From: a virus
Virus record (IMG/VR): IMGVR_UViG_3300017938_000011
Span: 1 to 55,726 of that record
Direction: 5' to 3' (one strand)
Length of the DNA stretch: 55,726 nucleotides
This document shows, piece by piece, positions 2,643-55,726 of the stretch. Position numbers and translations under genes: made by a program. The notes beneath the pieces were generated by a model. That model saw only the letters and a list, made by a program, of their open reading frames with translations. It was not told the DNA's origin and ran no database searches. How positions within the stretch are numbered: position 1 is the first letter of the stretch; each line of letters begins with the position of its first letter.

Positions 2643-2868
2643 ACGCGATTGCCCATCCGTAGATCTCTTGCGCGGCATTCTGATAGGCGGCAGCGCGAGC
2701 CTTGGCAGCACCATAATCTGCGCCAGGGAACTGCTCTGACTTCTCCTGTTTCTGACTCAGCCAATCGCCGGCGCGGTAAAAAGCTAGTCGGGTCGCGGCG
2801 TCGGCGATCTTGGCTTCTCGCTCAGAAAGGTTTTCAAGCAATGTGCGATCGTCATCTGCTCGGCTCAT
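2635..2868 (-). CDS. Hypothetical protein, 77 residues
   Basis: Begins MSRADDDRTLLENLSEREAK and is rich in Ala, Glu and Lys, probably all helical: LSEREAKIADAATRL then KARAAAYQNAAQEIYGWAIA. Start and stop each overlap the neighbouring genes by a few bases, which is the operon style here. It has no recognised domain. Confidence 0.6.
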   Translation of the reverse strand: MSRADDDRTLLENLSEREAKIADAATRLAFYRAGDWLSQKQEKSEQFPGADYGAAKARAAAYQNAAQEIYGWAIAYE

Positions 2869-3122
2869 GCGCTGCGCGCCTCTCTGGCATTGACACCCAT
2901 GCCGATACCATGAATTTCCTTTTGCCGGTCGACTCGGAGATCAAGCGACCCTTGCAAAGGACTGATTCTCTTAGGCCGCGTTGTCGCAGGTAAGTGCCTG
3001 ATTTTTCTGATCATTGCACCGATTCTCTTGTGAGGCCGTTCTGACGCTTTTGCCGCGACGATTTGCGCTTTTTTGATGATGTCGGCGACGGTGTCTGCAA
3101 TTAATTTGGCGCGTATTGTCAT
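2865..3122 (-). CDS. Basic hypothetical protein, 85 residues
   Basis: Starts at ATG 3122 behind GGCGGAGAGC, overlapping the stop of the preceding gene (ATGA). The frame remains open further upstream, but only as a shadow of the neighbour. The sequence is strongly basic, with MTIRAKLIADTVADIIKKAQ at the start and RIGAMIRKIRHLPATTRPKR in the middle, suggesting nucleic-acid contact. I recognise no family. Confidence 0.55.
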   Translation of the reverse strand: MTIRAKLIADTVADIIKKAQIVAAKASERPHKRIGAMIRKIRHLPATTRPKRISPLQGSLDLRVDRQKEIHGIGMGVNAREARSA

Positions 3123-3436
3123 GTTTTGCTCTCCGCCTTTCGACGCCACCAGGTTCGCTCCGAAATACCTTGGGCAACCCACGGCTTGCGTTGCGTGATC
3201 GTTTCCTGTTCGCTTCCGCGCCGCGGACGGCCACCAGTTCCCTTTGGCGGACCTTTCCGTTTCTTTGGCGGCTTGGACGTTATGCCAGTCAAGATCTTCA
3301 CCGCCGTAATAGTGGCCTTGGCTACTCCGATCATACCGCCAGAATGCTTCGTTGGTTTGTTCGGCGTTCCCATGAATTTGGGGCACGGCCCGATGCGATG
3401 CCGTTCGCCGCACGTCCTGCATTTCACTGCGTCCAT
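3119..3436 (-). CDS. Putative DNA-binding protein with a Cys-rich start and HTH-like end
   Basis: 105 residues. The N-terminus MDAVKCRTCGERHRIGPCPK has a CxxC and another Cys and His, a likely zinc-binding knuckle. The middle is basic and Pro/Gly-rich (KPPKKRKGPPKGTGGRPRRG), and the end, KPWVAQGISERTWWRRK, resembles the recognition helix region of small HTH proteins whose pattern is PW...GIS..TWYRR. It lies between the small-subunit-like gene and terL, so a role in DNA recognition for packaging or in regulation is plausible but unproven. Confidence 0.6.
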   Translation of the reverse strand: MDAVKCRTCGERHRIGPCPKFMGTPNKPTKHSGGMIGVAKATITAVKILTGITSKPPKKRKGPPKGTGGRPRRGSEQETITQRKPWVAQGISERTWWRRKAESKT

Positions 3437-3469
3437 GACATACTTAAAGGCATACTTTTGGCACGGTGT

Positions 3470-4150
3470 CTAGCTCGCCGCGGCTCTCGGCGGCGGCAAC
3501 GGCGCTGATTCTTCGCCTTCTGGCGGATCATCCTCGGCCGTGATCACCGTCAGCGCCGGCAACGCCGCGCCCTCTAGCTCCACTGAAGGCTTAAAATCAT
3601 TAGGCATTCCGCCTTCCACCTTGATCTTCGTCACCACGGTCGCCCCGACGACAACGGCCGAATAGCGGGGATCCTGGAACGGTGCCAACGCCTTGGCGGC
3701 ATCGACCGCCAGCGCGGCGTATTTGTCGAATTTCGCGTCGTCCGGCTTCCGACCCGGCGGCGGCACGGTCATCCCCGGAGGGAGCGGCTGAGACACCGCC
3801 GCCATCCCCGCGAACAATTCCATGAAGTTTTCCAATACCTTCTTGGCCCGCCTCGAATCCGGCATGCCCTTGCGTTCCAAGGCCTCGATCGCCGCGTCCT
3901 TCGCCACCGCCGCGGCCGCCGCCTCCCGGGCAACCCGCTTTAATCTCTCGATCTCGAGCGTCTTCTTGTTCTTGATGCCGGGCTTGCGGCCGCCTTTGCC
4001 CTTGGGTGGCCCGCGTTTCTTCTGCGGACGCCCGTCTTTCGTTAATTTGATGGGAGGTGGCTCACTACCGGCAATGTTGGTTCCGCCTTCCAGCGGCGTT
4101 TTCTGCGCGATTGCGGGGCCTTCTGGTGGCGATGGGAGATCGTCTGACAT
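3470..4150 (-). CDS. AT-hook-like basic protein, candidate terminase small subunit
   Basis: 226 residues starting at ATG 4150 after CAAGGC. It has a Pro-rich N-terminus, then a basic stretch (KKRGPPKGKGGRKPGIKNKK at about 44-63) resembling AT-hook DNA-binding segments, then an Ala/Lys helix, and a segment FDKYAALAVDAAKALAPFQD-PRYSAV. This last type of motif recurs next to large terminases in rhizobial phages as far as I remember. The acidic Pro-rich tail looks disordered. Position first in the packaging operon fits a small terminase subunit, but direct evidence is lacking. Confidence 0.45.
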   Translation of the reverse strand: MSDDLPSPPEGPAIAQKTPLEGGTNIAGSEPPPIKLTKDGRPQKKRGPPKGKGGRKPGIKNKKTLEIERLKRVAREAAAAAVAKDAAIEALERKGMPDSRRAKKVLENFMELFAGMAAVSQPLPPGMTVPPPGRKPDDAKFDKYAALAVDAAKALAPFQDPRYSAVVVGATVVTKIKVEGGMPNDFKPSVELEGAALPALTVITAEDDPPEGEESAPLPPPRAAAS

Positions 4151-35243: not shown

Positions 35244-36305
35244 CTATAACGGCGGATTGCTTGCTAATACTTGCTGATTCGGCGCAAGCGTAAACACGGT
35301 TACCCACGCATCAGCACTTGGTTGTCGGAAGTCTCCGTAATGATGAATGTCATGAATCCAGAATCCTCCTTGAAAAGTCGCCTTCAAATTCACCAACGAT
35401 GAATTAGCCGCTTGCGTGTTCTTGATCAAATACGGAGGCAAGGTTACTTGCTGGAAAACCGTCAGATCGCCCCGCATGACGGTCTTCATGGAAATCATCC
35501 CTGCCTCGATCCATGTCGGCTGCCCGATGAGGTCTTGAAATGCGATCTGCTTGGCGTTGCCTGTCTGCGGATTGCTGTTGTCGGAAATCAAAAAACCACC
35601 TTGCGAAGTGACTACGATCATGACGCCCGGATAGCCTTGCGTGCCATTGGGGTCGATCGAGTTCTTGCTTAGTTGTTGAACGATCCAGCCGAACTCTTCG
35701 ATCGTCGGATATTTGCCGAATTGACCTGGCGCTGGCGTGGCGATGTTGGGATTAATGTTGCCGAGCGTGATCTGCGCGCCGGGATACGCCGTCTGCAAGG
35801 CGTTCTGAATCGCTTGGCCGAATGGCGTTCCGGCTTTCCAATTCAGGACGATATTCTTCGGCTTTCCGAGTGTTCCAACACCACCCGTATTGGACGATGT
35901 CGCGAATGGTCCCGGCATGACGACGAGGTCCAACGTCATCGCCGTTCCAATCCAATTTCCAAACGCCTGAAATATCTTGCCTTGGCAGATGAGACCTTGT
36001 TCGGCCGGATTTGCTAACGGAAGTCCTTTTGCCATCCCCGCAAAAACTTTGATGTTCTTGCCAGCGAGATTGTTTGCTTGGCTGATTTCCTGAAGGCTGA
36101 TTCCCCAGATGCGAACGGTGCCGAAATTCGCTGGCGTGGCGGCGTTGATGATCGCGATGTCGATTTCGACGTTCCAAGCCGACGGCAACGTCTGTCCGTT
36201 CGCGTAGCTTCCGTAGCTTTGATTTCCGAGCAAATTGCCAAAACCCGGAGGGGTGTAAAGCGCGCCTGTTTTGGCGTCGGTGATGATGATCGAATAGAAT
36301 CTCAT
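35244..36305 (-). CDS. Baseplate hub protein (gp27/gpD-like)
   Basis: 353 residues. SYANGQTLPSAWNVEIDIAI, INAATPANFGTVRIWGISLQ, EISQANNLAGKNIKVFAGMA, LICQGKIFQAFGNWIGTAMT are typical of hub proteins that crown the tail tube and hold the spike, like T4 gp27 and P2 gpD. Position before the spike gene supports this. The four-base overlap with the plug gene indicates coupled translation. Confidence 0.75.
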   Translation of the reverse strand: MRFYSIIITDAKTGALYTPPGFGNLLGNQSYGSYANGQTLPSAWNVEIDIAIINAATPANFGTVRIWGISLQEISQANNLAGKNIKVFAGMAKGLPLANPAEQGLICQGKIFQAFGNWIGTAMTLDLVVMPGPFATSSNTGGVGTLGKPKNIVLNWKAGTPFGQAIQNALQTAYPGAQITLGNINPNIATPAPGQFGKYPTIEEFGWIVQQLSKNSIDPNGTQGYPGVMIVVTSQGGFLISDNSNPQTGNAKQIAFQDLIGQPTWIEAGMISMKTVMRGDLTVFQQVTLPPYLIKNTQAANSSLVNLKATFQGGFWIHDIHHYGDFRQPSADAWVTVFTLAPNQQVLASNPPL

Positions 36306-36814
36306 GGCGAGACTTCAAATTGCGAACTGGATTCGCGAAACACGAGTGATGACGTGAACGGAGTTCCGTTCTCATCGCTGAACCCGCCGACCAAATTCAG
36401 ATTAAAATTCGCGACGCCGAAACTTGTCGCGGCGCCTGGATCGGGAGCAAGATCGTATTGAAATTTGGTAGGGCTGATTATCAAGCAATCAAACAATCCG
36501 CTGTACGCGCTCGGCGTCGCTCCAGAGATTGTCAGCGCGACAACGCTGCCGATTGTATAGCCGTGCGGCGCTTCTGTGGTCGCCGTCACGATTCCGATCG
36601 TTGACCAAGACAGAGATTCGATGATGATGCCGCTCGGAGAGGCGATCAACGGTTGCGAGACGATCAACGCGCCATTGAGCGAATAAAGATTCAGATACCA
36701 TCGTTGCCCGAAGACATTCCAAGTCACCGTCGCGTTATAGGTCTGCCCGTCCAAAACTGGTTGAAAGGAGAATGCTTGTGACGTGCTCGGGACGAAGTTC
36801 GTAAACGTGGTCAT
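36302..36814 (-). CDS. Baseplate plug family protein with inserted beta domain
   Basis: 170 residues. FVPSTSQAFSFQPVLDGQTY, NATVTWNVFGQRWYLNLYSL matches the Pam3-type baseplate plug family. Residues about 70-135 (VTATTEAPHGYTIGSVVALT, ISGATPSAYSGLFDCLIISP) form the E1-FCCH-like beta module seen in the J and sheath proteins, here interrupting the plug domain. The end, FTSSLVFRESSSQFEVSP, resumes the plug pattern. Confidence 0.75.
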   Translation of the reverse strand: MTTFTNFVPSTSQAFSFQPVLDGQTYNATVTWNVFGQRWYLNLYSLNGALIVSQPLIASPSGIIIESLSWSTIGIVTATTEAPHGYTIGSVVALTISGATPSAYSGLFDCLIISPTKFQYDLAPDPGAATSFGVANFNLNLVGGFSDENGTPFTSSLVFRESSSQFEVSP

Positions 36815-40624: not shown

Positions 40625-42265
40625 TCACGTCGTGAAGGACGATACGCTGATGTTCACCGTGATCGATTCGAACCCGATCAGCGGCGTGTAGTCGATCGAG
40701 ATGCCATCGTAGGTCCCGGGCGCGTAGTCGTTCGGGTTCTCCGTGACGTAGCTCGCGAACGGATCGGCGTTGACCACCGTGAAGCCGTCGTAGGTCCCGT
40801 TGTCCAACGCGGCGACGAAGTCCGCGGCGTCGAGCGTCGTCATCTTTACGTTGTTGAGCACGAGTCCATCCGTGATGCCGGTATTCATCGTCGAAACGGC
40901 GACTTGTTGCAGTGTGTTGATCCCGGCTTGATTGTAGTAGATCGGATTCTGCGGATTGTTCGCCGCCTCGATCAGCGCAGCGGTGATGTTCACCGCGAGG
41001 TTAGTCTGCACCCAATCGATCGAATACCAATAGTTGAACGGATTGCCATCGAGCGTATTGCCGCCGATCAGGATGTTCGCCGAGATTCCGCCCGCCGCGC
41101 CGGTGCCGACGAAGTTGACGTTGCCGACGTTGAGTTCTGTGAGCAACGCCGCATTGCCCTCGGTCGGAAACGGTGTCACGCCGACAAGGTAGGACAAGTT
41201 GAGCGGCGTGACTTTGTTGGTCGATGACGGCTTGTAATTCAGCGTCACGCGGAAATCGGAGGCGTGGCTGAACTCAGTCGGCGGGATGCCAGCGGAGGCG
41301 TATTGGCTCTGAACGAGCGTGCCGAGCTGCGTCTCCGCCCCGGTCGCTGCCGGGACGTTGAAGACGATCGCGTCGGTGGCGGTGCCGGGAAGCGCGAGGA
41401 ACCAGCCGTTGTATGCGGCCGGAAGATTGCCGGAGAGCTGGAAATACTCACCCGGAGAGACGCCGTGGTTCGTCGTCGTCACCGCCGTCGCCGTCCCAGA
41501 AGTCTGTGTCAGTCCGGTCAGCGCGTTCGCCGGCCAGACGCCGTAAGCCGGACATTCGATCATGAGATCGACGCACTTGTCCGTGTCGGGATAAAGCTGC
41601 CAATTCTGCAGCGTCGTCGTGACGAAGAAGTAAATCTTCGACGTCGTCGCGTTGAAGTTCGCCAGGAAGGCGAGGAACGAGGCGTTGCCGTCCCAGGATC
41701 GCGGCACGAGGTACGAGTAGAACGTGTTCGGGTTCGCCGCGATCCATGTCGTCAAGAATGCGACGCCAGCACTCGGTTCCCCCGGACCCAACTCGAGGAC
41801 GGTAACGCTCTGTGCGGTGCCTTGCGCGAAGAAGGTCGTCGCCATCGCGACGAGCTCGGCCTGGTTCCGCGGCGTATAGGTGATCGTTCCCGTCGCGGGC
41901 GACGTGCCGCCGTCGGAGGCCAGCTCGTAAGTGAACTGCGACACCGTCGTGGCAGTGGCAAGGACCGTGCCGTTGTAAACCGCCGGAATCGCCCCGGCGA
42001 TCATGGTAAGGAATTGGTCGCCGACCGCGACGCCGTGGTTGACCGACGCCGTTGCCGTCGCGACGCCTCCTGACCACGACAGGTTGGAGATGGCTAGCGG
42101 AGCCGCCAGGATCGGCGTCAGGTCGGAAGGCTGCGTCAGGAGAGACTTCGTGCCCGGGCTCGTGTTCGTCCCGCCTTGCGAGATGAAGGCTCCGGTCTTC
42201 TGCAGCGTCGGTGGTGCCGGGGCAACGAGAACGCTTACGTTGACGGAAACTATCGGATTGCTCAT
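40625..42265 (-). CDS. Tail sheath protein (DUF3383-like) with two inserted beta modules
   Basis: 546 residues. PPTLQKTGAFISQGGTNTSP, NTFYSYLVPRSWDGNASFLA, SKIYFFVTTTLQNW and the end YAPGTYDGISIDYTPLIGFE, SITVNISVSSF match DUF3383-type sheath proteins. Two E1-FCCH-like modules are inserted: residues about 58-130 (VNHGVAVGDQFLTMIAGAIP, AVYNGTVLATATTVSQFTYE) and about 248-318 (TTTNHGVSPGEYFQLSGNLP, AAYNGWFLALPGTATDAIVF). The sheath contracts to drive the tube through the envelope; the inserts should stick out from it. Confidence 0.85.
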   Translation of the reverse strand: MSNPIVSVNVSVLVAPAPPTLQKTGAFISQGGTNTSPGTKSLLTQPSDLTPILAAPLAISNLSWSGGVATATASVNHGVAVGDQFLTMIAGAIPAVYNGTVLATATTVSQFTYELASDGGTSPATGTITYTPRNQAELVAMATTFFAQGTAQSVTVLELGPGEPSAGVAFLTTWIAANPNTFYSYLVPRSWDGNASFLAFLANFNATTSKIYFFVTTTLQNWQLYPDTDKCVDLMIECPAYGVWPANALTGLTQTSGTATAVTTTNHGVSPGEYFQLSGNLPAAYNGWFLALPGTATDAIVFNVPAATGAETQLGTLVQSQYASAGIPPTEFSHASDFRVTLNYKPSSTNKVTPLNLSYLVGVTPFPTEGNAALLTELNVGNVNFVGTGAAGGISANILIGGNTLDGNPFNYWYSIDWVQTNLAVNITAALIEAANNPQNPIYYNQAGINTLQQVAVSTMNTGITDGLVLNNVKMTTLDAADFVAALDNGTYDGFTVVNADPFASYVTENPNDYAPGTYDGISIDYTPLIGFESITVNISVSSFTT

Positions 42266-43533: not shown

Positions 43534-44565
43534 TCAGGCCGCCTCGTCCGCTTGGCCGTTGATGTAGTAAGTCGGGATCGCGGTCTTGATGATCTTCTGC
43601 GCGACGTCGCGGATGCGACTCTGGTGATACGAGATTTCCCAGGTGAGCGACTTCTTCATGGCGATGGTGCCGAGCTCGGCCTGCGTCCGCTTCTCGTCCT
43701 GCGGAGCAGGCGAGGCGCTCATCAAGCCGAAAATGCCGACATCGGTGCTGTATTGATTGACGCAATCGACGAAATCCATCGCTTCGTCGTTCCTGGTCCC
43801 CCAGAGCGTGATCTTCACCCGTTCGGCGCAAAGCTGATAATGGCTTGATCTCGACCCGATGCGCGGCGCCAGCGCCAGCGGCCGCGTGCTTTCCGGGAAG
43901 ATGTGCACCGCGGCGAACGGCGGCACGATGTTCGGCGGCACGAGGAACGACGGGTAGAGCGTGATCCCGGGGTTGCCGAATCCGTAGGGCGGATCATAGC
44001 CGTTCAGCGCCAGCCAAGCCGGCAGGCTGTTCGAGACGACGACGCTGGAATCATCGAAATCAGAAACGTCGTCGACGAGCTGGTTCTCCATGTCGGGGTA
44101 GACGGCGTTGCCGAAGTAATGAAATAGCGACGCCTGCCGGTAGAAGTTCTTCCGGTTCGAGAACGCGAACCGCTGGCCCTCGAACTCGGCGACGTAGAGC
44201 AGCGTGGGGCCGACCTTGTTAAGGTCCTGGACCTCCTCGAGCGACGTGAAGGTGACCGCGTTCACCGCCAGCGTCTCTGCCTCTTCCTGGCGGACGTCGA
44301 TGGCATAGTGGAGCGATCCGAGCGCCTTGATCTTAGGCAGCGGCATATCGGCGCTGGAAAGCTGCGCCGCGGCGACGATGTTGGCGAGCGTCACGGCGCT
44401 GAGCAGGTCGGCTCTTATCCAAAAAACCCAAGAATCGAGAGGCAGAACGATTTTGGCGTAGAGCGTGAACTCGACGCGCTGCGTCAGTGATATGGTCTCG
44501 ACGCCAGCGGCGAGGTCGCTGGCGAGCGGCGTCTTGGCGGCTGCGGCTTCCTTGGCTGAACTCAT
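43534..44565 (-). CDS. Virion protein upstream of the sheath, 343 residues
   Basis: MSSAKEAAAAKTPLASDLAA begins the protein. LTQRVEFTLYAKIVLPLDSW, PDMENQLVDDVSDFDDSSVV, YGFGNPGITLYPSFLVPPNI, PFAAVHIFPESTRPLALAPR, and the end SLTWEISYHQSRIRDVAQKI with NGQADEAA suggest a structural tail-terminator or connector, but I recognise no family. It is directly upstream of the beta-helix and sheath genes. Confidence 0.55.
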   Translation of the reverse strand: MSSAKEAAAAKTPLASDLAAGVETISLTQRVEFTLYAKIVLPLDSWVFWIRADLLSAVTLANIVAAAQLSSADMPLPKIKALGSLHYAIDVRQEEAETLAVNAVTFTSLEEVQDLNKVGPTLLYVAEFEGQRFAFSNRKNFYRQASLFHYFGNAVYPDMENQLVDDVSDFDDSSVVVSNSLPAWLALNGYDPPYGFGNPGITLYPSFLVPPNIVPPFAAVHIFPESTRPLALAPRIGSRSSHYQLCAERVKITLWGTRNDEAMDFVDCVNQYSTDVGIFGLMSASPAPQDEKRTQAELGTIAMKKSLTWEISYHQSRIRDVAQKIIKTAIPTYYINGQADEAA

Positions 44566-44575
44566 TTTCCGTTCC

Positions 44576-44875
44576 TCATGCCGCGATCAGGTCAGAAGCC
44601 TTGACGAAGAACTTGGTAGCCGGGGACGTCGCGATCACCGCCCCCGTTCCCTGCCATTGATACGTCCATTCCCCAGGGCCGGAAGGCACGAACAGCATGT
44701 AGTAAACGCCGACGCTGGTCCGCACGATGGGAGTGCCGGGACCGTATTCCGTCACGTTGCCCGACGGATCCTCGACGTACAAGATCGTCGTCGTCGGATC
44801 GGCCGGGATGTTGGCGGCCACGTTGTAGAATTTCCCGTTGAGCTGGATCTGCGTGTCGATCTGATACATGTTCAT
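44576..44875 (-). CDS. Small beta-sandwich protein
   Basis: 99 residues from ATG 44875, overlapping the repeat-protein stop (ATGA). MNMYQIDTQIQLNGKFYNVA, PTTTILYVEDPSGNVTEYGP, VRTSVGVYYMLFVPSGPGEW, TYQWQGTGAVIATSPATKFF. The all-beta, Ig-like pattern, with a conserved Gly-Glu-Trp turn, is common in phage virion proteins. Partner of the proline-rich protein by genetic linkage. Confidence 0.55.
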   Translation of the reverse strand: MNMYQIDTQIQLNGKFYNVAANIPADPTTTILYVEDPSGNVTEYGPGTPIVRTSVGVYYMLFVPSGPGEWTYQWQGTGAVIATSPATKFFVKASDLIAA

Positions 44876-47800
44876 GACCGAGGAGCCTTTCCGATGTCGC
44901 TCGCGAATACCACGAAGGACGCGAAATCGCTGGCGACGCAAGTGTCTGGCGCCACCGGCGTGATGTTCGCTGGGTCGAGGTTGACGGCGACTTGATAGGC
45001 CGGATCGGGCGGAACCCACCCGATCAGGACTGTGAGCGGCACGCTCGATCCTAGGAACGGCGGGTTCTGCGGCTGCGGCGCGCTGACGGGGATGGGCAAC
45101 CGCAGCGGTTGATCGGGCTGGTATCCATATCCGAGCCAAGCGATCTCGATCTCCAGCGGCTCTTTTGCGCCAGCGAAGGGAAACGGACCGGATGGAACCG
45201 CCAAGATGCGCTGCTGGATCGGTTCCGGCGCGAGCCAATTCACCAAGACTTCGACGGGAACCTTGGCTCCGACCAGCGGCGGAATGGACACCAGCAGCCC
45301 TGGCGCGGTCGCCCGTCGCGTTTGGACGTCCGGGGCTGGAACGGCCCACCAGGAAAGAACGTCTTGTCCCACGCCCACGCCACGCGGAACGAAGGCCGTC
45401 CTGGGAACGATCTTCGCGGTGATGACTTGGTCCGGCGCGAGAGCCACCCACCAAGACAGGACATCCTGACCAATGGCGGTGCCGCGCGGCAGGAAGGCCG
45501 TTTGCGGGACCACCTTGGGGATGAAGACCTGGTCAGGCGGCGGTATCTGCCACCAAGCCAGGACCGGCAGCGGTACGCTCGACCCGATCGGCGTCTTTTG
45601 CGGCGCGCTCGGCGGCGTCCGTAGCTTCGCCGTCTGCGCCGCAGGCGGCTCAATGGATTGCCACCACACCATGACAGGCGCGGGAACTTGCGACCCGAAC
45701 GGTTGAACGTGAGCACTCGGCGGCGTCAGCGACGGTGCGGTCTGTGGTTGCGGTGATATTGGCGACCACAACGCTTGGATAATCTCCAACGGAGCGCGGG
45801 AACCGGGGAATGGCGGGTTCTGCGGCGTCGGGCCGTTGGGTGGCGTTAATGGTGGCGCTACGATTGGCTGCGGGTCAGGCGGCAGCCAGTTGAGTTGCAC
45901 TTCGTCGGGCAATCTTGCGCCAACCAGATGGGTTGTCGGCGCTGGCCCACTCGGCTCCGTCAGCGACGCACCCACGATTGGTGCCGGATCTGGCGGTAGC
46001 CATGTCAGTAGAACCGGCAACGGCACCTGAGCGCCGCCAGCAAACGGCGGGTTTTGCGGGATCGGCGGCGGGACAGTCTGTACTCTTGCCGGCAAAGGCA
46101 AAATCGGAGGCAACCACGCCAGCAGTTCCGCCTCGCGGAAGTTCGATCCGATCAGCGGCGGGTTCTGCGGCACCGACCGCGGCGGAGAAAGCAATCGCGC
46201 CGCTTGGAACGCGGGAGCGGGCGGCAGCCACGAGGCCAAGATCTCGGTCGAGACTTTCGTCCCGATGGGCGTCGGCGGCGGTGCCGAGCGCGGCGTCAAC
46301 CGTGCCCCGATTTGGAATGGCGGATCCGGCGCGATCCAGGCGTCGAGGACCGCTATCTGCGACGCTGGGGCGAGGACGTAGGCGGGCCCCCTGAGTACGG
46401 CGGACTCTGGCAATTCCACAAAAATCGGCGGTGCATACCAAGAGAGAACTTCTAACGACACCTTGGTGCCAGGGAACGGGATCGGCACTGCCGGTCCCGG
46501 CTGCGGAGGCGTCAATCGCGCGCCAGTTTGTGGCTGCGGGGCGTGAGGCAGCCAAGCAATCTGAATCTCCACCGGAACCTTGGTCCCGGGGAACGGCGGA
46601 TTTTGCACTGCGGGCCCGCTCGGCTCCGTCAGCGAAGCTCCGATTTGGAACATCGGATCGGGCGGCAACCAAGAAATCAAAACTTCGACCGGCACCTTCG
46701 CTCCGACTGGCGGCGGCGGTTGTCCCGCTGGCCCGCTCGGTGGAAGACGCGGCTGGGTTCTGATTGGTTGAGGCGGCGGCGGAATCCAGCCGACGAGAAC
46801 CTCGATCGGAACCTTGGTCCCGATAACGGGCGGGTTCTGCGGAATATTGCTGCTGAGGACGCCGGAAGGCGCCAAATCAATGATGGCTGGCGGCTTCGCC
46901 CATGAGATCAAGATCGGCAACGGGACGCCGATCGACATAACGGCTGGCGGGTTTTGCGGGGCACTTACCGGCGGAGAAAGATTCCGAACCGTCTGGAAGG
47001 CCGGGTCTGGCGGTAGCCACGTTTCCAGGACCGCGCCGAATTGCTGCGATGTTGCCCCCGGGAAGGGCGGGTTCTGCGGCGTGGGTCCGCTCGGCGGTAT
47101 GAGATTGCGCGCGACTTGGAACGCAAAATCGACGCTGGCCGGCGGCGTCTGCCACGAGAAGTTTTCGACCAGCGGCCTCGTGAACGGCGTCACCGGGGCT
47201 TCGATGGGAGGCGATAGCAGCCGAGTAGTTTGGAAAACCGGGTCGGTCGGAAGCCATGAAATCAGGACCGGCAACGGCACGGCGGTCCCGATCGACTGGA
47301 ACGTGGACAACGTCAGATTGGGGCCGGTTTGGAACTGAGGATCGGGCGGAATCCAGTTGATCTGGACCTCAAGCGGAACCCGCGACCCGACCGGAGTAGG
47401 CTGCGGCGCCGACCGCGGGGGCACCAACAAGCGAACGGTTTGGAACGGCGGGTCTGGCGGCAGCCAGGCGTTCTGCACCACGACTTGTTGCGATACGAGA
47501 GGCAGCACGAAGCCCGGAGCCGCCGCCGACGGCGGCAACCCGTTGATCGGGATCGAGACGACCGTGGTCGCCGACCAAGAGTTCAATACCGACTGCGGTA
47601 CTTTGGTCCCGGGAAACGGCGGGTTCTGAGCAAGAGGCGCAGAGATCGGAGGATTGAGAAGCCGCGCTGTTTGGAAGGCCGGATCGGGCGGAATCCAGGC
47701 GACTAAGACGGGCAGCGGCACGCTGCTTCCGATTACGGGCGGATTTTGCGGGGCCGAGATCGGCGGCGTCAGCAGTTCTTGGCAGTACGGCTGCTGGTTG

Positions 47801-48093
47801 CCTTCGTAGATCGGCGGCGGGGGTGGCAGCCAAGCATTGAGGATTTCGACCGGGACGCGGCCGCCAATCACAGGAGGATTCTGCGGCTGCGAGAGCGGCG
47901 GGTTGAGATTGGTCGCGACGATGGGCTGCGGCGGCGCAGGCGTCCACGCGCCAAGCACGACCGCCAACGCCATCGCGGCGGCGCCCATGAATGGCGGGTT
48001 TTGAGGTTGGGATTGCGGCGGAACCAGCAGCTTCTCTTGAAGCGGCTGCTGGTTGCCGACATTGTAAAGGGGCGGGTGGTAGAAGATGCCCAT
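44872..48093 (-). CDS. Proline-rich protein of about 27 tryptophan-centred repeats
   Basis: 1073 residues with no recognised family. Degenerate units of about 40 residues run nearly the whole length, with the plan QNPPF(P/I)G(T/S)xVPxxVLxxW(L/I)PPDPxFQ then xRxLxPPxSAP. I count about 27 units by their central Trp (for example EILNAWLPPPPP, VLVAWIPPDPAF, VLISWLPPDPMF, VLIGWVPPDPAY). Proline is extremely frequent, so an extended rod or fibre is likely. No signal peptide or transmembrane segment. Flanked by virion-type genes and two genes from a glycosyltransferase. Could be a fibre, a whisker or a tail-surface protein. Confidence 0.7.
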   Translation of the reverse strand: MGIFYHPPLYNVGNQQPLQEKLLVPPQSQPQNPPFMGAAAMALAVVLGAWTPAPPQPIVATNLNPPLSQPQNPPVIGGRVPVEILNAWLPPPPPIYEGNQQPYCQELLTPPISAPQNPPVIGSSVPLPVLVAWIPPDPAFQTARLLNPPISAPLAQNPPFPGTKVPQSVLNSWSATTVVSIPINGLPPSAAAPGFVLPLVSQQVVVQNAWLPPDPPFQTVRLLVPPRSAPQPTPVGSRVPLEVQINWIPPDPQFQTGPNLTLSTFQSIGTAVPLPVLISWLPTDPVFQTTRLLSPPIEAPVTPFTRPLVENFSWQTPPASVDFAFQVARNLIPPSGPTPQNPPFPGATSQQFGAVLETWLPPDPAFQTVRNLSPPVSAPQNPPAVMSIGVPLPILISWAKPPAIIDLAPSGVLSSNIPQNPPVIGTKVPIEVLVGWIPPPPQPIRTQPRLPPSGPAGQPPPPVGAKVPVEVLISWLPPDPMFQIGASLTEPSGPAVQNPPFPGTKVPVEIQIAWLPHAPQPQTGARLTPPQPGPAVPIPFPGTKVSLEVLSWYAPPIFVELPESAVLRGPAYVLAPASQIAVLDAWIAPDPPFQIGARLTPRSAPPPTPIGTKVSTEILASWLPPAPAFQAARLLSPPRSVPQNPPLIGSNFREAELLAWLPPILPLPARVQTVPPPIPQNPPFAGGAQVPLPVLLTWLPPDPAPIVGASLTEPSGPAPTTHLVGARLPDEVQLNWLPPDPQPIVAPPLTPPNGPTPQNPPFPGSRAPLEIIQALWSPISPQPQTAPSLTPPSAHVQPFGSQVPAPVMVWWQSIEPPAAQTAKLRTPPSAPQKTPIGSSVPLPVLAWWQIPPPDQVFIPKVVPQTAFLPRGTAIGQDVLSWWVALAPDQVITAKIVPRTAFVPRGVGVGQDVLSWWAVPAPDVQTRRATAPGLLVSIPPLVGAKVPVEVLVNWLAPEPIQQRILAVPSGPFPFAGAKEPLEIEIAWLGYGYQPDQPLRLPIPVSAPQPQNPPFLGSSVPLTVLIGWVPPDPAYQVAVNLDPANITPVAPDTCVASDFASFVVFASDIGKAPRS

Positions 48094-48136: not shown

Positions 48137-48634
48137 TTAGACGCCCTCGGCGTAATTGATCCCAACTGCCCAGTTCGACAGCGAAGCCGCCGCCGCTGGC
48201 AGGAAGAGGCCGAAACCGGAGCCGAACGCCGGCGGCAGGTCGATCTGCTCGCGCGGGGTCGCGACCCAGAGATAGCCGTTGAGAACGTTGAAGTTGTCGC
48301 CGAACATAATGGTCTTGGAGCCGGCGTTCTCGGCCGAGGCGTTGATGCCGCAGGTGCCAACCGCGCCGGTCGTCGCGCCGGAGACGATCGAGGCCGTGGT
48401 GTCGCCGAGCTTCAAGTGCTTTGGCGTGGCGCTGACCAACGTCGGGAAGGCCGAAGCCTGGGTCTCCGCCTCGATGCGTTGCTGCGCGGAAGTCGCGGAG
48501 CCCTGCTGCGACGCCCACATGCGGAGGACCAGGATGTCGACCGACGGCGCCGCGGGCGGATTGATGTAATCGAGCGTGATGGCTGAGTTCGCGAGCGTGA
48601 GGCCGTCGCCGCCAACCGTAAATTCACGAGACAT
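48137..48634 (-). CDS. Virion structural protein, decoration-like
   Basis: 165 residues. MSREFTVGGDGLTLANSAIT, NPPAAPSVDILVLRMWASQQ, GSATSAQQRIEAETQASAFP, GINASAENAGSKTIMFGDNF, LSNWAVGINYAEGV. The order of motifs resembles small phage structural proteins with a beta-sandwich fold that I remember from several tailed phages. Its start overlaps the end of the glycosyltransferase gene. Confidence 0.6.
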   Translation of the reverse strand: MSREFTVGGDGLTLANSAITLDYINPPAAPSVDILVLRMWASQQGSATSAQQRIEAETQASAFPTLVSATPKHLKLGDTTASIVSGATTGAVGTCGINASAENAGSKTIMFGDNFNVLNGYLWVATPREQIDLPPAFGSGFGLFLPAAAASLSNWAVGINYAEGV

Positions 48635-49943
48635 GGTGCATGGTCTCCGCTGATGTTGTCTTAGCCGATTGCGACCTGCCCTGTTGCACCAAGTCGCTGA
48701 GTCTTGCTCTTAGCACGGCGACCACGGATTTCCAATCCCCGTCGTGAGGTTGCCGAAAGCACGTCGCCGACGGATACCAGGGATTGTCAGTGCGGCCGCG
48801 AATCCAGAGCCAATATGTTCGATACGATGTCAGCATCACCCATGTTTTGACGCCGACCGTGCCGGCCAAATGAGCGACCGACGTGTCGACCGTGATCACG
48901 AGATCAAGGCCGGCGATGACGCAGGCGGTGTCGAGGAAATTCTTCACCTTCGAGCCGACGTCGAAGATGTCCATTTCGTCGAACGCGGCCTTGTCGGTGT
49001 CCCTGATGTCGAGTTGCAGGCTGTAGAACTCGACGCCGGGAATCTCGAACAGCGGCGCGAGTTCACGCAGCGGGATGTTGCGGACGCGGTCGTACTGGCT
49101 CTCGCGCGATCCGGACCAGCACAGGCCAACGCGCAAACGCGGCTCGCCCATCAACATCCCGGATTTCCACTTCGCCTTGAGTTGGAGCGGCAGTTGATAC
49201 GGAGCTGGTGGCGGGCAGGTATCGACATCGGTGCCGAAGCAATGGGCCAAGCTCATCATACGAACCCAGTAATCGTGCTTCGGCGTCTCATCCTTGATCT
49301 GGAGCATCAACCCCGGCAGCGTGGCGGCGAGTGGCTGCATGACCGAGGGGACGGCAGCGATCACTTTAGCTCCGCACTTCCGCAGCATCGGCACGTAGCG
49401 CAGGAACATGATGTTGTCGCCGTGACCCATCTCGCCGACGATGAGGATGGTCTTGCCGTCGAGCGGCTGCTTGCCGGTCCACTCTGGCGTCGAGCGCGGT
49501 GGCAGTTTCATTTTCTTGCGATACTCAAAATCCACGAAGCCGTCGCGCAAATTGCCGAGCACGAGATTGCAGAAGCCGCGCCCGAAGCGCGCCGCGTGCT
49601 CATAAGGCTTTTCCACATCAGGATTGTCGATCAGCATGTCGTAGTTGGTGATCGCGTCCTCGTGGCGCTGCACCTGCATGAGCAGGTGGCCAAGGTTGAG
49701 CCGCGCGACGTGGTAGAGTGGGTCATTGCGGAGAATGGCGTAGAGGATTGACAGCGCCTCGTCAGCACGTCCTAGTTCTCCAAGCGCAACGGCCCGATTG
49801 CATAGCGCGGCGCGCATATCCTCCTGCATCTGGGCAATGGCTTGGTCGAGCCACGGCAATGCCTCCTCAAAATATCTTTTCTGAACTAATTCGAGGCCAA
49901 TCATAAGCCTGCCGTGAGCGTTTAAATCCGGCATAGAGTTCAT
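48624..49943 (-). CDS. TPR-glycosyltransferase (GT9/OGT-like)
   Basis: 439 residues. TPR-like helices at about 10-140 (KRYFEEALPWLDQAIAQMQE, ALGELGRADEALSILYAILR). The enzyme part has ILIVGEMGHGDNIMFLRYVP, RVGLCWSGSRESQYDRVRNI, VEFYSLQLDIRD, VITVDTSVAHLAGTVGVKTW and a late LWIRGRTDNPWYP, the usual elements of TPR-linked GT-B enzymes related to heptosyltransferases and OGT. Such enzymes use a nucleotide sugar. In a virion gene cluster the target is probably a phage structural protein or host surface sugar. Confidence 0.78.
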   Translation of the reverse strand: MNSMPDLNAHGRLMIGLELVQKRYFEEALPWLDQAIAQMQEDMRAALCNRAVALGELGRADEALSILYAILRNDPLYHVARLNLGHLLMQVQRHEDAITNYDMLIDNPDVEKPYEHAARFGRGFCNLVLGNLRDGFVDFEYRKKMKLPPRSTPEWTGKQPLDGKTILIVGEMGHGDNIMFLRYVPMLRKCGAKVIAAVPSVMQPLAATLPGLMLQIKDETPKHDYWVRMMSLAHCFGTDVDTCPPPAPYQLPLQLKAKWKSGMLMGEPRLRVGLCWSGSRESQYDRVRNIPLRELAPLFEIPGVEFYSLQLDIRDTDKAAFDEMDIFDVGSKVKNFLDTACVIAGLDLVITVDTSVAHLAGTVGVKTWVMLTSYRTYWLWIRGRTDNPWYPSATCFRQPHDGDWKSVVAVLRARLSDLVQQGRSQSAKTTSAETMHHVS

Positions 49944-50141: not shown

Positions 50142-52061
50142 TCAACTGAAATTCATCAGAGGGTCTACAAAAAACGTCGTGCTTGCCTCGGCAGCCTTCA
50201 CCGTGCCGTAGATGTAGCCAACCATCTGCGCCGTCAGCGTCACCACCATCGAGAACCGACACCCGGCGCGGAACGTGGCACCGCCGTCAGTGACGGAGCC
50301 TCCGTCCACGGCACTCGCGTATCCGGCAGGCTCGCTGCTGGCGCTGGTCCCCGCCGACGTGCAGAAGAACACGCGGCCCGCGTTGTCCGGCACGCTAATC
50401 GTGTTGCCGAGCGAATAAGACGTGCTGTTGGCTCGCGCCGTCGCGTTCCATTGCGACGTTGAGTCGGCGGTGAGCGCGGTGCCGGTAGCGAGATTGTTGG
50501 CTTTGGTATCATTGGCGAAGCTGGCCATCGGCGAACTCGCCGAGCCGAAGTATTCGCACTCCAGCCATATCTGATCGTTGTTAGGAACTGCGGCGGCGTT
50601 GACGAGACCGTAAACCGTGACATTGCGGGACGATCCGGTAAGTGTGTTCCACTCTGGAATCTGGAAAGCATTGAATGGATTGATCCACTTGCTGTTCGCT
50701 GTCGTGACGATGTTCCAGCTAATCGGCGTCGTGCCGTCCGATGCGCCGCCACTGCGGTAAACCGATGTCGATTGCGTCAAAACACCGGAGTAGTGGTATC
50801 GTGCCTGCCGGTAATTTGTCGCCGCGCTATCGCTAGTGATGAAATCTACGTTACATCCTGGGTAAGTTTGCGCGATGCAAGGCGTCACGCCAGACCCCAA
50901 CAGACAATCCCTGAATATCACGCCACCGTTGAGCGAAGTCGAATCAACAAGTGTCTTACCGGAGCCCAAGGCCGAAAGGTCAACGCCGTCTATCAATGCC
51001 AATCCGAGGACAATACCTTGGAATAGATTCGTCGGCAAAGTCGCGCCTTGGATTGCACTCGGCGTATTCTTCCAGATAAAATTAGAGGTATTAATCGATA
51101 CCCCATCGGCGGTGGTTCCGATTTGCAGCGTCGTGTTAACGAGTTCGACGTAGATGTTATACACTGTTGTAATAGAACCTGAGTTAGAAGATGTGCCCAA
51201 TTTTGCAATCGTGCAATTTTCTATCTTTTGCCAGTTCGCTCCAAAAGTAAAAGTAGCATAAGAGCTTGAACCGCTGCCCGCGTTGAACGTGAGGCCATTG
51301 CAATAAACGGCGGTGCCAGCAAGACTAAGGTTACTAATCAGAGTCGTAGAAATTGATGCGCCAGTGATTATGTCGCCGGTGCCAGGCGGAACGCTGCCTG
51401 GGGATTGTGCCACGCAGTAGCAATATGCCGGAGCGGCAAAAGTGCCAGGTGAAGTCAGCGTGTTTGCTGATGCTTGCGTCTCGGCATGAATGGCGCTGAT
51501 GAAGAAAGAGTTCCCGGCCTGTCCCCAAGTTGAAGCGAAGGCGTTACCTAGCCGCGCGTGCGGCGCGCTCCAGATTGAAAAGCCACTTGCCAGCCCGAGC
51601 GAAGTCCAGGTCGCGCTGGCGTCCGACGCGGTGACGCCAGCCGTCGCCGAGAACGTTGGAGAACCGGAGGTCTTGCCTGCTCCGCCGACCGTGCAAATCT
51701 GGATCGAGGTCGTGCCAGGATCGTAGATGTGCTGACCAAGCACCCAAGTCTTGCTCAGTGACCACTGCGGCGTGTTGGTGATGTCGCCGTTGAGGCCGCT
51801 GAGTCCGGTACATTCCTGGAAGACCGCCGTACCGCTGGTGTTCAGCGCGCCGCGCGTCACCGTCCATGTCGGTTCCGTCGTGGTCGAGCCCGCCGTTGTA
51901 ACGATGAAGCAGCGTTCGCTGCCAACCGCTGGCGTCGTGAGCTGCCGATAAAGCGCGCCAGCCGCAACAACGGTCAAGCCAGGGAATGTCGGGATGGCGT
52001 AATAGCCTGTCGAGGAGCCGTTGCCGAAGTTGACATACCAAGCATTATCGACGAGGGCCAT
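50142..52061 (-). CDS. Large beta-rich virion or fibre protein
   Basis: 639 residues: MALVDNAWYVNFGNGSSTGY, SERCFIVTTAGSTTTEPTWT, and repeated SGSPTFSATAGVTASDASAT type modules, Gly/Ser/Thr-rich, followed by a beta-helix-like middle (LTFNAGSGSSSYATFTFGAN, WQKIENCTIAKLGTSSNSGS) and VFFCTSAGTSASSEPAGYAS. Carbohydrate-binding or surface-exposed fibre is the likely role. No catalytic motif. No signal peptide. Confidence 0.6.
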   Translation of the reverse strand: MALVDNAWYVNFGNGSSTGYYAIPTFPGLTVVAAGALYRQLTTPAVGSERCFIVTTAGSTTTEPTWTVTRGALNTSGTAVFQECTGLSGLNGDITNTPQWSLSKTWVLGQHIYDPGTTSIQICTVGGAGKTSGSPTFSATAGVTASDASATWTSLGLASGFSIWSAPHARLGNAFASTWGQAGNSFFISAIHAETQASANTLTSPGTFAAPAYCYCVAQSPGSVPPGTGDIITGASISTTLISNLSLAGTAVYCNGLTFNAGSGSSSYATFTFGANWQKIENCTIAKLGTSSNSGSITTVYNIYVELVNTTLQIGTTADGVSINTSNFIWKNTPSAIQGATLPTNLFQGIVLGLALIDGVDLSALGSGKTLVDSTSLNGGVIFRDCLLGSGVTPCIAQTYPGCNVDFITSDSAATNYRQARYHYSGVLTQSTSVYRSGGASDGTTPISWNIVTTANSKWINPFNAFQIPEWNTLTGSSRNVTVYGLVNAAAVPNNDQIWLECEYFGSASSPMASFANDTKANNLATGTALTADSTSQWNATARANSTSYSLGNTISVPDNAGRVFFCTSAGTSASSEPAGYASAVDGGSVTDGGATFRAGCRFSMVVTLTAQMVGYIYGTVKAAEASTTFFVDPLMNFS

Positions 52062-52372
52062 CAGACGAAGCCTCTCCTAGACCGGCTGAATGACTTCCAG
52101 CCGTAATGCCCGAAAATCTTCACCACGCCGCGCTGGTACACGATCTTGCGCGCGACCTCCCCGGTATCAACATCGTTCCGCATCACCGTCCACTCGAACT
52201 CGCCGCTGTGGACCTCGTACTGCGTCCCGATGGTCCAGGCCGCACCGTCGGAATCGGTGATGATGAAGGCTGGCGGTATCTCGACATAACTCTCCGTCTT
52301 GTTCGCGCGCTCGTAGCGGGCACCGTTGATGATGCCGACGAGCATGTCTTTGTCAAAAAGAAAATCCGTCAT
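52061..52372 (-). CDS. Small virion-type protein, 103 residues
   Basis: MTDFLFDKDMLVGIINGARY, then ESYVEIPPAFIITDSDGAAW, TIGTQYEVHSGEFEWTVMRN and a basic end FSRSRRGFV. Probably all-beta. Start and stop abut neighbours in the same operon. No family recognised. Confidence 0.5.
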   Translation of the reverse strand: MTDFLFDKDMLVGIINGARYERANKTESYVEIPPAFIITDSDGAAWTIGTQYEVHSGEFEWTVMRNDVDTGEVARKIVYQRGVVKIFGHYGWKSFSRSRRGFV

Positions 52373-52373: not shown

Positions 52374-53300
52374 TCATGCTGCTTTCTTCGGCAGGATCAG
52401 GCCACGATTCGGCACTAGCAAGCCAGACTTTCTATGCCGCTGGTAGCGTGGCGGTAACCAACCCACAGATTTCCGCCGCTGCGCCAGGATAGGCCCTTGC
52501 TGCGGCCAAGGATTATAAGGATTGAGGCCGGTAGCGCCGCCGGTCTGCGATAGTGCGTCCACCATGATGCCCCAGCCGCCCGCCGTCGCGGCAGAGGCGA
52601 ATGCGGCAGAGGCGGAGGAAATAGTGGCGGCCAGAACCCGATATTCTACTTGGAGACCAGCCGCATTGCTTCCAGAGTTTTCAAGCGCGACATCCGGCGT
52701 GACCGAAGTTCCTGTTGTACCAGCGAGTGGTCCAGGCTGGACACTTTCAAAAAATGGGACAGTAGCGCCGTTGTCCGAGCTACCGCCGAACGCAAAGGTT
52801 AACGTCGCGGCATTCGCGGTTGAGACGTTAGCCCCGGACGTCAACTGTGTCCGCGTAGCGCCGTTGTTGGTGACCGCAAACCCGAGTGCCGTCGTTGCCG
52901 ACTGATCCCACGGATTTGTCCGATAGGATGTTCCCGTGAACCCGGTGACCGAGAAGCTCATGAACGCGCCGTTGTCCAAGGCACCGCCAGCGGTGGTGAT
53001 CGAAATAGAACTCGAGACTGTTAATGCCGTGGCAATGTAGGTCCACCAGATCTCCAAATCGGTCAATCCGCTGCCAAACGCCGAATTAGACGTGTACTGA
53101 ATGCCGTTGCGTTTTTGATAGATGTTGCTGGTTCCGTCAGATGGCGGAGTAGAAGTCGATATCGTTGGGTACGATGCGCTGACACTGTCCATGACGGAAC
53201 AAATGATGACGACGTCACCCACGCTCGCGAGCATCCCAGTTTCCGCGATGGGCGAGGTCGTCGAGATTCCCGAGGCATAGTCTCGTATGCTTAGAGCCAT
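52374..53300 (-). CDS. Beta-rich surface-type protein, 308 residues
   Basis: MALSIRDYASGISTTSPIAE, then a Gly/Ser/Thr-rich middle (LTVSSSISITTAGGALDNGA, FMSFSVTGFTGTSYRTNPWD), ATLTFAFGGSSDNGATVPFF and YRVLAATISSASAAFASAAT, then a proline-rich hydrophilic tail (GLNPYNPWPQQGPILAQRRK). It resembles phage head or tail fibre-surface beta-sandwich proteins. No named family. Confidence 0.55.
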   Translation of the reverse strand: MALSIRDYASGISTTSPIAETGMLASVGDVVIICSVMDSVSASYPTISTSTPPSDGTSNIYQKRNGIQYTSNSAFGSGLTDLEIWWTYIATALTVSSSISITTAGGALDNGAFMSFSVTGFTGTSYRTNPWDQSATTALGFAVTNNGATRTQLTSGANVSTANAATLTFAFGGSSDNGATVPFFESVQPGPLAGTTGTSVTPDVALENSGSNAAGLQVEYRVLAATISSASAAFASAATAGGWGIMVDALSQTGGATGLNPYNPWPQQGPILAQRRKSVGWLPPRYQRHRKSGLLVPNRGLILPKKAA

Positions 53301-53301: not shown

Positions 53302-54780
53302 TCATCCGCCTAAGTTGGCGCCAGTCTTCAGGTTCGTGTTGCCGGAATAAGTGATTGTTGGATTGTAAGTCCCTTCGCCTTCGTTAGCCACAGAGAACAC
53401 TCCGTAGTCCGTTCCGGTCGGATCGACAAAATTATTCTCATAGGTCATCGAGGTCTTAATGTTGCTCGTATCGACGTACCAATCATAGCTGACGGTATTC
53501 GTCCCGAGCGTCACCATTGTATTATTATTCGTAACGACAACGGTTGCGCTGCCGCTGTTGCCAGCCGCACTGACGATGCTTAAACCTTGTGTCGCGGCTC
53601 CGGCATAAGTTCCCGTCAAGCCCGGTTGGCGCCAAAGATTGAAGTTCGTGGTGATAGTCTGAATGTTGCTGGCGGAAATGTTGAAAACCTGCAACCAGTC
53701 ACCATGAGAACCGTCGATTGGAAAACCAGCTCCAGCGACTTCAACTAGATTGTATTGAATTGTCAGCGTCACTCCGGTTTGTGCCGGAGTATCCTGACCA
53801 TAGACAACATCTTCGTTCCAGAAATTCTTGATCCAATTATATTGGATTAGATTAGTGCCATACCCATTGCCCTCAATCCCTCCGGCATTATTGTTGGTGT
53901 AACCCTGCAACGCACCCCCGTCCACGATGTTGTACGCGACCGTTACGTTGGATGCCACAAGACTCGCGGAACCTACTGTTTCAATTCCCGGTACAGTAAT
54001 CTGGCCAGACCCATAAGTCGTGCCGCCGCCGCCTTCATGCCAATAGTTATCGCGGATAGTGAACCCGGAACAATTAGCCACGATGATGCCAATGCCAGTA
54101 TGCAGCGAGAAGTCATAGCCCCACAACACGGCATTATTGGCCGATGATCCTGAGAACTGAATAGCTTGACCATTGCCGCTATAAGAGCCGGGGTAAGTGC
54201 CGCCAATCGCTGTCAGTATAGAGACGAGCGTTCCGACCGTGTTGCTTGTGTAGCTAGAGAACGGATCGCGCAGGAAATAAAAGTTGTTCCCCGACATACC
54301 AGAAGTCGAGGCGTTGATCGCCGATCCGCCGCTAGTTGTCGAGACTTGGAATTGCGTTTCCGTCAATCCAGTCGAAATGACATAGTACGGTACGCCCTGC
54401 GTCAGCGCGCTAGGCAAAACGTTCGTGCTGGTCAGTGGTAGACCGCTGGTGGGAGAAATGTTGTCCTGTTGTGCATAGAAGGTGATGATCTGGCCAGCGG
54501 AAAGACCATGCGTCGACGGTAACCCGGGCGGTGCGACATAGGTAAACAAGATCGTCGAACCAAAGTTTGACATCGTCAAGTTGGCATTGATGCCGACGGC
54601 GTAATCCCAACCGCTTACCTTCCATGCCGGTGGATGAGCATAGTTGGCCCGCTCGTTCGGCCACTGCGCCGAGCCAATCGCAGCGTTCGGCGAGCCATCC
54701 ACTCCCGCATATGGATCGGTGGACGAACCGGACGATGGCGGCGACAATTTCGGCTTTGTCTGAATGAGAACGTAATCCAT
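53302..54780 (-). CDS. Beta-helix protein, candidate polysaccharide-binding spike
   Basis: 492 residues. The first part has DPYAGVDGSPNAAIGSAQWP and a module STHGLSAGQIITFYAQ ... VPYYVISTGLTETQFQVSTT like fibre domains. From about 200 on there is right-handed beta-helix sequence (GIIVANCSGFTIRDNYWHEG, VAYNIVDGGALQGYTNNNAG, GYGTNLIQYNWIKNFWNEDV). Position next to a glycoside hydrolase supports polysaccharide binding or cleavage, but catalytic residues are not clear. Confidence 0.6.
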   Translation of the reverse strand: MDYVLIQTKPKLSPPSSGSSTDPYAGVDGSPNAAIGSAQWPNERANYAHPPAWKVSGWDYAVGINANLTMSNFGSTILFTYVAPPGLPSTHGLSAGQIITFYAQQDNISPTSGLPLTSTNVLPSALTQGVPYYVISTGLTETQFQVSTTSGGSAINASTSGMSGNNFYFLRDPFSSYTSNTVGTLVSILTAIGGTYPGSYSGNGQAIQFSGSSANNAVLWGYDFSLHTGIGIIVANCSGFTIRDNYWHEGGGGTTYGSGQITVPGIETVGSASLVASNVTVAYNIVDGGALQGYTNNNAGGIEGNGYGTNLIQYNWIKNFWNEDVVYGQDTPAQTGVTLTIQYNLVEVAGAGFPIDGSHGDWLQVFNISASNIQTITTNFNLWRQPGLTGTYAGAATQGLSIVSAAGNSGSATVVVTNNNTMVTLGTNTVSYDWYVDTSNIKTSMTYENNFVDPTGTDYGVFSVANEGEGTYNPTITYSGNTNLKTGANLGG

Positions 54781-54789: not shown

Positions 54790-55726
54790 CTATGGTGCCG
54801 TCAGCACCAAGACCCAGTCCGGGTCGCCGTTGGCGTTGTTGGATGTCGGAACAAAGTTATGCGTGCCGGTATTGGAAAACGGCGAACCAGAGATGGCCGT
54901 AAATGCTCCGTTAGTCGGGTCGAGCCATCGTGCCGTCACGCTGCCAGCAAAGTGTGACATGGCAACCGTGAGCGTGCCTGTCTGACCATAGATGAAATAC
55001 GCGAGGGCCAGCGTACCATCCGGCGTCGCCGACACCGTGATGTAGTTGGTTGCTGCGAAGCCAGTGGCAGCAGTCGGGTTTGAACCATAACCAGCAGTGC
55101 CTACGGTGTGGGCGTTATCTGGAACTAGGTTCTGCCACGCGATAGTGGAAAGGAAATTTCTTTGTACGGTAAGATCCGCGACGCCCGGCGTCGCCATGTT
55201 GTTCTTCCATCGCGGCGACGTGTTGTTGTAACCAGTCACCTGAATGTTAGAACCGACGTTGACCTCAAATCCGGTACTGAGAAAGCCATTACCGTATTGC
55301 TGCCCGAATACCCCAGAGCACAGCGTCCACCATGCCTGCTGCCGCAGATTCAGACGGTTGCCGGGGTTGCCGACGTTGTTCTCATATTCGTAATTGGCTT
55401 CAAGCATCGTTGACGGGCACGGCGTCGGCGTCTTATTGGTGCCGGTCACGCCGGCGAACGCGGCTGGCGACTGCAAATAAGACACGAGCGAATACCAAAA
55501 GGTCACATAGTAGGAATAATTGCCCGTCCAGTTGACGTAAGACCTGAAGTTCGCATCGTCGAGCGCGGTACTGTCTGATGGAGTATAATTCATCTCCATC
55601 GTGATCAGCGTGCCAGCAGGAGCAGTTTCCTGGACGCCTAACATCATGGCGGCGACCTGCGCGTCGAAAGAGCCGCCGTAGTCGTTGCCGAACTGATAGG
55701 CGACGTGCTTGTAGCTCTTGTAGCGG
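54790..55726 (-). CDS. DUF4038-like glycoside hydrolase, C-terminal part
   Basis: The frame is open to the right edge, so only the last 312 residues or so are seen. AGTLITMEMNYTPSDSTALD belongs to the TIM-barrel part; then QQAWWTLCSGVFGQQYGNGF. The end DGTLALAYFIYGQTGTLTVA, GSVTARWLDPTNGAFTAISG, GDPDWVLVLTAP resembles the C-terminal beta domain of DUF4038/collagen-binding-type hydrolases (GH140-like). A virion-linked depolymerase for host surface glycans is plausible. The catalytic centre cannot be fully read. Confidence 0.7.
   Translation of the reverse strand, partial: RYKSYKHVAYQFGNDYGGSFDAQVAAMMLGVQETAPAGTLITMEMNYTPSDSTALDDANFRSYVNWTGNYSYYVTFWYSLVSYLQSPAAFAGVTGTNKTPTPCPSTMLEANYEYENNVGNPGNRLNLRQQAWWTLCSGVFGQQYGNGFLSTGFEVNVGSNIQVTGYNNTSPRWKNNMATPGVADLTVQRNFLSTIAWQNLVPDNAHTVGTAGYGSNPTAATGFAATNYITVSATPDGTLALAYFIYGQTGTLTVAMSHFAGSVTARWLDPTNGAFTAISGSPFSNTGTHNFVPTSNNANGDPDWVLVLTAP

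Follow-up and report, generated by a model that had tools for sequence, protein, structure and literature searches.

The viral DNA of IMG/VR record IMGVR_UViG_3300017938_000011, analysed here over its positions 1 to 55,726 (55,726 nucleotides, the window), carries on its minus strand a gene for a 1073-residue protein built from Trp- and proline-rich repeat units. This protein is probably (about 0.6) an accessory, extended and mostly non-globular virion arm or tether that lies near the head-tail junction or on the tail and carries or spaces adhesins. The case for an extended virion appendage, the best reading, is that relatives of the protein are fused to, or directly precede, the fibre-anchoring domains Gp77 and BppU_N, and it is mainly the adaptor, tail-type and glycan-type joins seen in relatives that place the family among virion appendages. 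The repeat is new in that none of the family libraries searched has a name for it; phage appendage proteins as a class are already known. Together with a co-conserved partner gene, the repeats form a recurrent module in uncultivated phages, with at least 117 partner-bearing stretches in IMG/VR. The window contains the following core genes.

44872-48093, minus strand: repeat protein, 1073 aa, with an N-terminal MGIFYHPPLYNVGNQQPL motif, 27 Trp/PPxP/NPPF units and a short non-repeat C-terminus
48137-48634, minus strand: co-conserved partner, 165 aa, predicted single jelly roll, 43 nt upstream of the repeat gene
44576-44875, minus strand: 99-aa protein, Ig-like by eye, whose ATG overlaps the repeat-gene TGA; this is the slot of Gp77 or BppU_N adaptors in some relatives

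The repeat unit

A preliminary description of this DNA placed a 1073-residue reading frame at 44872-48093, and both its coordinates and its length hold. The gene begins with ATG, has a purine-rich GAGGGG shortly upstream, and ends in a TGA that overlaps the start of the 99-aa gene (ATGA). About 27 units of 40 residues with a central Trp and a PPDP motif had been described. The number is right, with 27 Trp blocks, but their spacing of 33-45 residues averages (1026-50)/26 = 37.5, slightly under 40. Likewise, Trp does anchor every unit, whereas PPDP is only part of the motif. The periodicity goes beyond chance, because the BLOSUM autocorrelation peak of -0.35, at a shift of 38, lies above the highest value that 200 shuffled sequences reach at any shift (-0.41; mean -0.55). 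The units align with one another at a mean protein identity of 0.38, against 0.26 for shuffled units, and a hidden Markov model (HMM) of the unit detects 28 domains in the protein, with an E-value inflated by the model having been built from the same units.

Proline makes up 22% of the protein and Trp 2.9% (31 residues), while Gly accounts for only 5%. A collagen-like or short-period proline repeat is ruled out by the dominant period of 37-39 residues, the lack of Gly-X-Y and the low Gly content. The absence of a known domain and of a membrane signal, both noted by eye in the preliminary description, is confirmed. Over the repeats the window protein has no match in Pfam, PHROG or PDB sequences, the relatives in L007, L008 and L012 (contigs and loci are cited by L number) are also free of curated-family matches, and no named family emerges across the repeats. 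No membrane segment is convincing, because the most hydropathic 19-residue segment (1.75) holds three prolines. A tblastn search of 50,697 cultured-phage records, which can miss diverged repeats, gave zero matches, and a literature search on proline-rich phage appendages found nothing relevant.

Across 369 family units, the consensus is W-[QLI]-P-P-[DP]-P-x-P ... L-x-P ... [DQ]-N-P-P-F ... G ... [LV][LI][LIV]A-W. Trp is invariant in each unit, the two Pro residues of NPP are conserved at 93-95%, and the Asp of PPDP at 43%. Leu and Pro are kept in a middle stretch, a Gly/Arg stretch follows NPPF, and [LV]-[LI]-[LIV]-A stands ahead of the next Trp. An AlphaFold2 model of a four-unit segment, computed from an in-register alignment of 16 segments, predicts a single short helix (6-7 residues) per unit, placed at or before its Trp, and no regular structure elsewhere.

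Growth of the array by internal duplication, which its regularity had suggested, is rejected for the recent past. Tandem Repeats Finder (TRF) detects no tandem DNA repeat in the gene, and neighbouring units are scarcely closer to one another (0.41 protein and 0.57 DNA identity) than are all units overall (0.38 and 0.56); among adjacent pairs, Trp 847/881 alone attains 0.62. Rather than being freshly duplicated, the array is thus old or kept by selection.

Units also occur alone. A protein in L020 (14637-15476) has a single WLPAPAPQQKGQLPPSL unit-like stretch ahead of the conserved structural-protein domain phrog_399, which suggests that the unit can serve singly as an N-terminal motif. In the window, a 308-aa protein (52374-53300) has a C-terminal GWLPPRYQRHRKS, a lone unit-like WLPP stretch.

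A recurrent module with a predicted jelly-roll partner

The first relatives were found in uncultivated-phage contigs with a degenerate DNA pattern spanning two units in a row, and a profile search yields 369 units in 44 open reading frames (ORFs), again from uncultivated-phage contigs. A second contig represents the same phage as the window, with 99.99% identity over 20.8 kb. Occurrence in bacterial genomes is not supported; a single pattern scan gave three matches, which are regarded as chance because none has an ORF that passes the unit HMM.

The partner gene lies upstream of the repeat gene in every repeat-bearing contig with enough upstream DNA, namely L026 (the contig of L003), L020 and L022 (both of the same phage), L021, L012, L023 and L024; the contigs of L007 and L008 end too early upstream to judge. 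The window protein shares both family features, multiple units and a jelly-roll partner upstream on the same strand (48137-48634). A profile of the partner identifies 117 relatives in IMG/VR. Statistics on partner loci rest on the 80 of these 117 matches that were listed, or 79 loci without the window's own phage. An ORF that passes the unit HMM lies downstream of the partner on the same strand in 38 of the 79 loci, and 22 further loci have a downstream ORF with the N-terminal motif (e.g. MGLYYSPPQP). Compared with the rest of the loci, the 5 kb downstream of the partner are enriched in unit-bearing ORFs (Fisher p 4e-17) and in motif ORFs (Fisher p 3e-19). The partner, the wider repeat family and the accessory island described below all go beyond the preliminary description.

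L072 has a second unit-bearing ORF (1092-3488; 798 aa, 8 units), which lies some 9.4 kb upstream of its partner gene.

The partner is a predicted jelly-roll virion protein, a role proposed from its modelled fold. Its AlphaFold2 model, built from 66 sequences, is all-beta and of high confidence (pLDDT 91.8, pTM 0.86). In Foldseek searches with this model, the BFVD matches are uncharacterised proteins of phages (best E 1.5e-13), and the PDB gives weak matches to coat proteins of viruses with the jelly-roll fold (best E 4.8e-3, low TM-score). The partner thus resembles single jelly-roll virion proteins in predicted fold but differs from them in sequence; it has no match in Pfam, PHROG or cultured phages and no sequence relation to jelly-roll coat proteins.

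Adaptors and domain fusions in relatives

Evidence for an appendage comes from what follows the repeats. In L034, L043, L063, L071 and L090, the repeat or motif gene is followed after 21-30 nt by a gene that matches Gp77 above the curated cut-off. The repeat protein of L072 carries Gp77 as a C-terminal fusion, and a sub-cut-off Gp77 match occupies the same C-terminal position in L031. In L044, Gp77 is fused to the head-tail adaptor domain phrog_195. BppU_N anchors receptor-binding proteins in lactococcal phages, and the directly downstream gene in L039 matches this domain (PF10651) above cut-off. Downstream adaptors are thus present in a minority of relatives.

In both cases the likeness lies in the neighbour. 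BppU_N, a domain of baseplate upper proteins, is encoded next to the repeat protein and is no homologue of it. Gp77 of the Ralstonia podophage GP4 (PF23148) is a fibre-tail adaptor (PDB 8jou), and it too is a neighbour, a protein different from the repeat protein. Pfam appears to have taken the name from the tail-fibre structure of GP4 (Zheng et al. 2023, as cited in PMC11784390). The place of Gp77 downstream in five relatives, and as a fusion in L072, suggests that the repeat protein occupies a fibre slot.

Other fusions add tail-type and glycan-type domains. The repeat protein is fused to a beta-helix related to lacto-N-biosidases in L023, to Laminin_G_3 in L040, to DUF2612 in L091 and, judged by eye, to glycine-rich domains in L049 and L072. 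In L093 the N-terminal motif and FN3 repeats occur on one protein; its relatives in L044-L046 and L073 do not have the motif.

Three further candidates were set aside. Homology of the window's 99-aa gene to the gene downstream in L036 is unsupported (BLASTP E 0.12). The large downstream protein of L044 was considered as a known hub and has no PDB match and no convincing similarity to L040. By eye, a C-terminal EDR-type repeat ahead of the adaptor occurs in some relatives and in proteins of cultured Lacusarx and Microcystis phages (L109 4349-5980 and L111 1459-3963). The genes of these cultured-phage proteins precede Gp77-like genes, and the EDRxxLP-type repeats at their ends resemble the C-termini of some repeat proteins. 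This link is not claimed, as a loose regular expression gave 11 of 45 against 10.0 expected by shuffling.

An accessory island among structural genes

The surroundings of the gene had been described as virion-type, and it does lie between the capsid and tail-sheath genes. In relatives, the cassette follows the capsid gene and precedes a head-tail adaptor (L043), head closure Hc3 (L101), tape measure (L083) or other structural genes. The Certevirus phage PdC23 and related enterobacterial phages (OL396571) share homologues of the capsid, phrog_6359, sheath and neighbouring genes with the window phage but have neither the repeat gene nor the island that holds it. The PdC23 genes pdc10 and pdc11 overlap, whereas their window homologues stand about 12.3 kb apart with the island between them. 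Its right border is at 44565, and its left border lies about 1.2 kb past the window end, as located in the contig extension L028. Because these cultured Certevirus-type relatives are without the whole island, the repeat protein is accessory in the window lineage, outside the basic virion plan. The island is all on one strand and contains glycan-type and decoration-type accessory genes. The island genes upstream of the partner, and the genes at and beyond the right border, are as follows.

54790-55726, minus strand: apiosidase-like glycoside hydrolase with Collagen_bind_2, cut by the window end (488 aa in a longer contig)
53302-54780, minus strand: 492-aa protein, no Pfam or PHROG match, repetitive beta-type sequence by eye
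52374-53300, minus strand: 308-aa protein, no Pfam or PHROG family, one GWLPPRYQ stretch C-terminally
52061-52372, minus strand: 103-aa protein whose relatives immediately precede the partner in about 23 loci
50142-52061, minus strand: 639-aa protein whose C-terminal stretch matches a PHROG head-decoration family (phrog_20658, E 1.2e-6)
48624-49943, minus strand: TPR protein with a weak heptosyltransferase-like match (PF01075, below cut-off) and relatives in about seven partner-bearing loci
43534-44565, minus strand: phrog_6359 protein, PdC23 pdc11 homologue, right island border
40625-42265, minus strand: tail sheath (phrog_205), PdC23 pdc12 homologue

The tail-sheath gene implies that the window phage has a contractile tail. 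The 103-aa protein finds no match by tblastn in cultured phages. An MptE-like protein is encoded beside a relative of the TPR protein in L026. With this neighbour and the C-terminal heptosyltransferase-like match of the TPR protein, the phage may itself encode a glycan-modifying step for the appendage. A phrog_9998 stretch is common to the tail sheath (40625-42265) and a 170-aa protein (36302-36814), and a pdc05-like protein near the capsid gene matches the same regions; several virion proteins apparently share a single, reused domain.

Proposed architecture

The proposed cassette would run from the 103-aa protein through the jelly-roll partner and the repeat protein to a small Ig-type adaptor, with the repeat protein as its central, length-variable member. 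In each unit, a short helix is predicted to run up to the Trp and to give way there to an extended, proline-rich stretch; units in series would make a long, semi-flexible, mostly non-globular arm. The small adaptor-type domain encoded after, or fused to, the repeat protein may be what anchors the arm to the particle, at a site near the head-tail junction or tail. The N-terminal aromatic-PPxP motif and the units could provide a series of contact sites for the virion or the jelly-roll partner. The arm would carry or space glycan-binding or glycan-cleaving domains, which are fused to it in relatives and encoded by neighbouring genes in the window phage, and would thereby help adsorption.

The preliminary description proposed an extended fibre or a novel tail or head whisker. 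Its extended appendage is retained, in the light of the fibre-anchoring domains in relatives, but the trimeric-fibre and T4-fibritin architectures are not. The proposed likeness to T7 gp17 and T4 fibritin is that of an extended appendage near the head-tail junction or tail; the repeat protein differs from both in having no family match and no predicted coiled coil or trimeric beta fibre. A trimeric tail fibre is rejected on the grounds of no fibre family, no strands and only short helices (in a low-confidence model of a single chain), and a T4-type neck whisker, a coiled-coil rod with a foldon, on the grounds of 22% proline and no long helix in the modelled segment.

Several points weigh against an adhesin-bearing virion arm. 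Its virion location and mechanism are inferred from sequence and gene context. The AlphaFold2 model of the repeats has low confidence (pLDDT 59, pTM 0.16) and is compatible with an extended chain but no proof of one. Gp77 passes the cut-off in just 7 of 50 contigs, and the window's own 99-aa downstream gene matches no family, Gp77 and BppU_N included. About 19 of the 79 partner loci have neither repeat nor motif downstream, some of them being contig ends. Because several of these loci are near-identical contigs, the counts overstate independence, and the effective number is lower. The partner may also be just a genomic neighbour of the repeat gene.

The place of the partner separates some of the alternatives. 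Each unit might dock one copy of the jelly roll, so that a proline-rich thread arrays partners on the virion surface like beads on a string. The two genes are adjacent and tightly co-conserved, the strong conservation of W, PP and NPPF is typical of linear binding motifs, and the N-terminal motif, an aromatic-PPxP, resembles a unit, with some proteins keeping little besides this motif and another domain. However, the partner also adjoins proteins without recognisable units (L030, L044-L046), and jelly rolls are common in virions. Such docking is unlikely, and as a sub-model it could coexist with the arm. A fuller version is doubtful: an unbranched thread of 2 to 28 units, with a partner docked at each Trp unit and interchangeable glycan-active tips, acquired as an accessory module by unrelated uncultivated phages. 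Alternatively, the units themselves may be the adhesin, an exposed multivalent brush of Trp and proline that sticks to host glycans or environmental polymers in the manner of multi-Trp choline- or sugar-binding repeats. The invariant Trp and the glycan-active or decoration-like island neighbours fit this idea, but the separate glycan-type domains that relatives carry on the same chain would then be redundant, and Pfam gives no match to known carbohydrate-binding repeats; this explanation is quite unlikely.

Two other explanations move the protein away from an outward-projecting role. It might lace or cement the capsid, running over the head surface and bridging capsomers. An extended chain suits surface lacing, the gene lies downstream of the capsid gene, and the jelly roll predicted for the partner is the fold of many decoration proteins. 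Yet in relatives the cassette has tail- or neck-type domains beside it or fused to it (DUF2612, Gp77, tape measure neighbours), and cultured relatives do without the whole island, which leaves capsid lacing improbable. It is very hard to credit that the protein is an assembly factor or other late, non-virion product that merely sits among structural genes; its units are fused to tail-type, adaptor and glycan domains and its gene lies inside the structural block. The accessory virion arm remains the preferred reading.

Implications

If the repeat protein is a virion arm, its architecture would differ from those of coiled-coil whiskers and trimeric beta fibres: the number of units would determine its length, and its glycan-type domains would be interchangeable. 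The motif and the partner profile together provide an annotation marker for structural genes currently called hypothetical.

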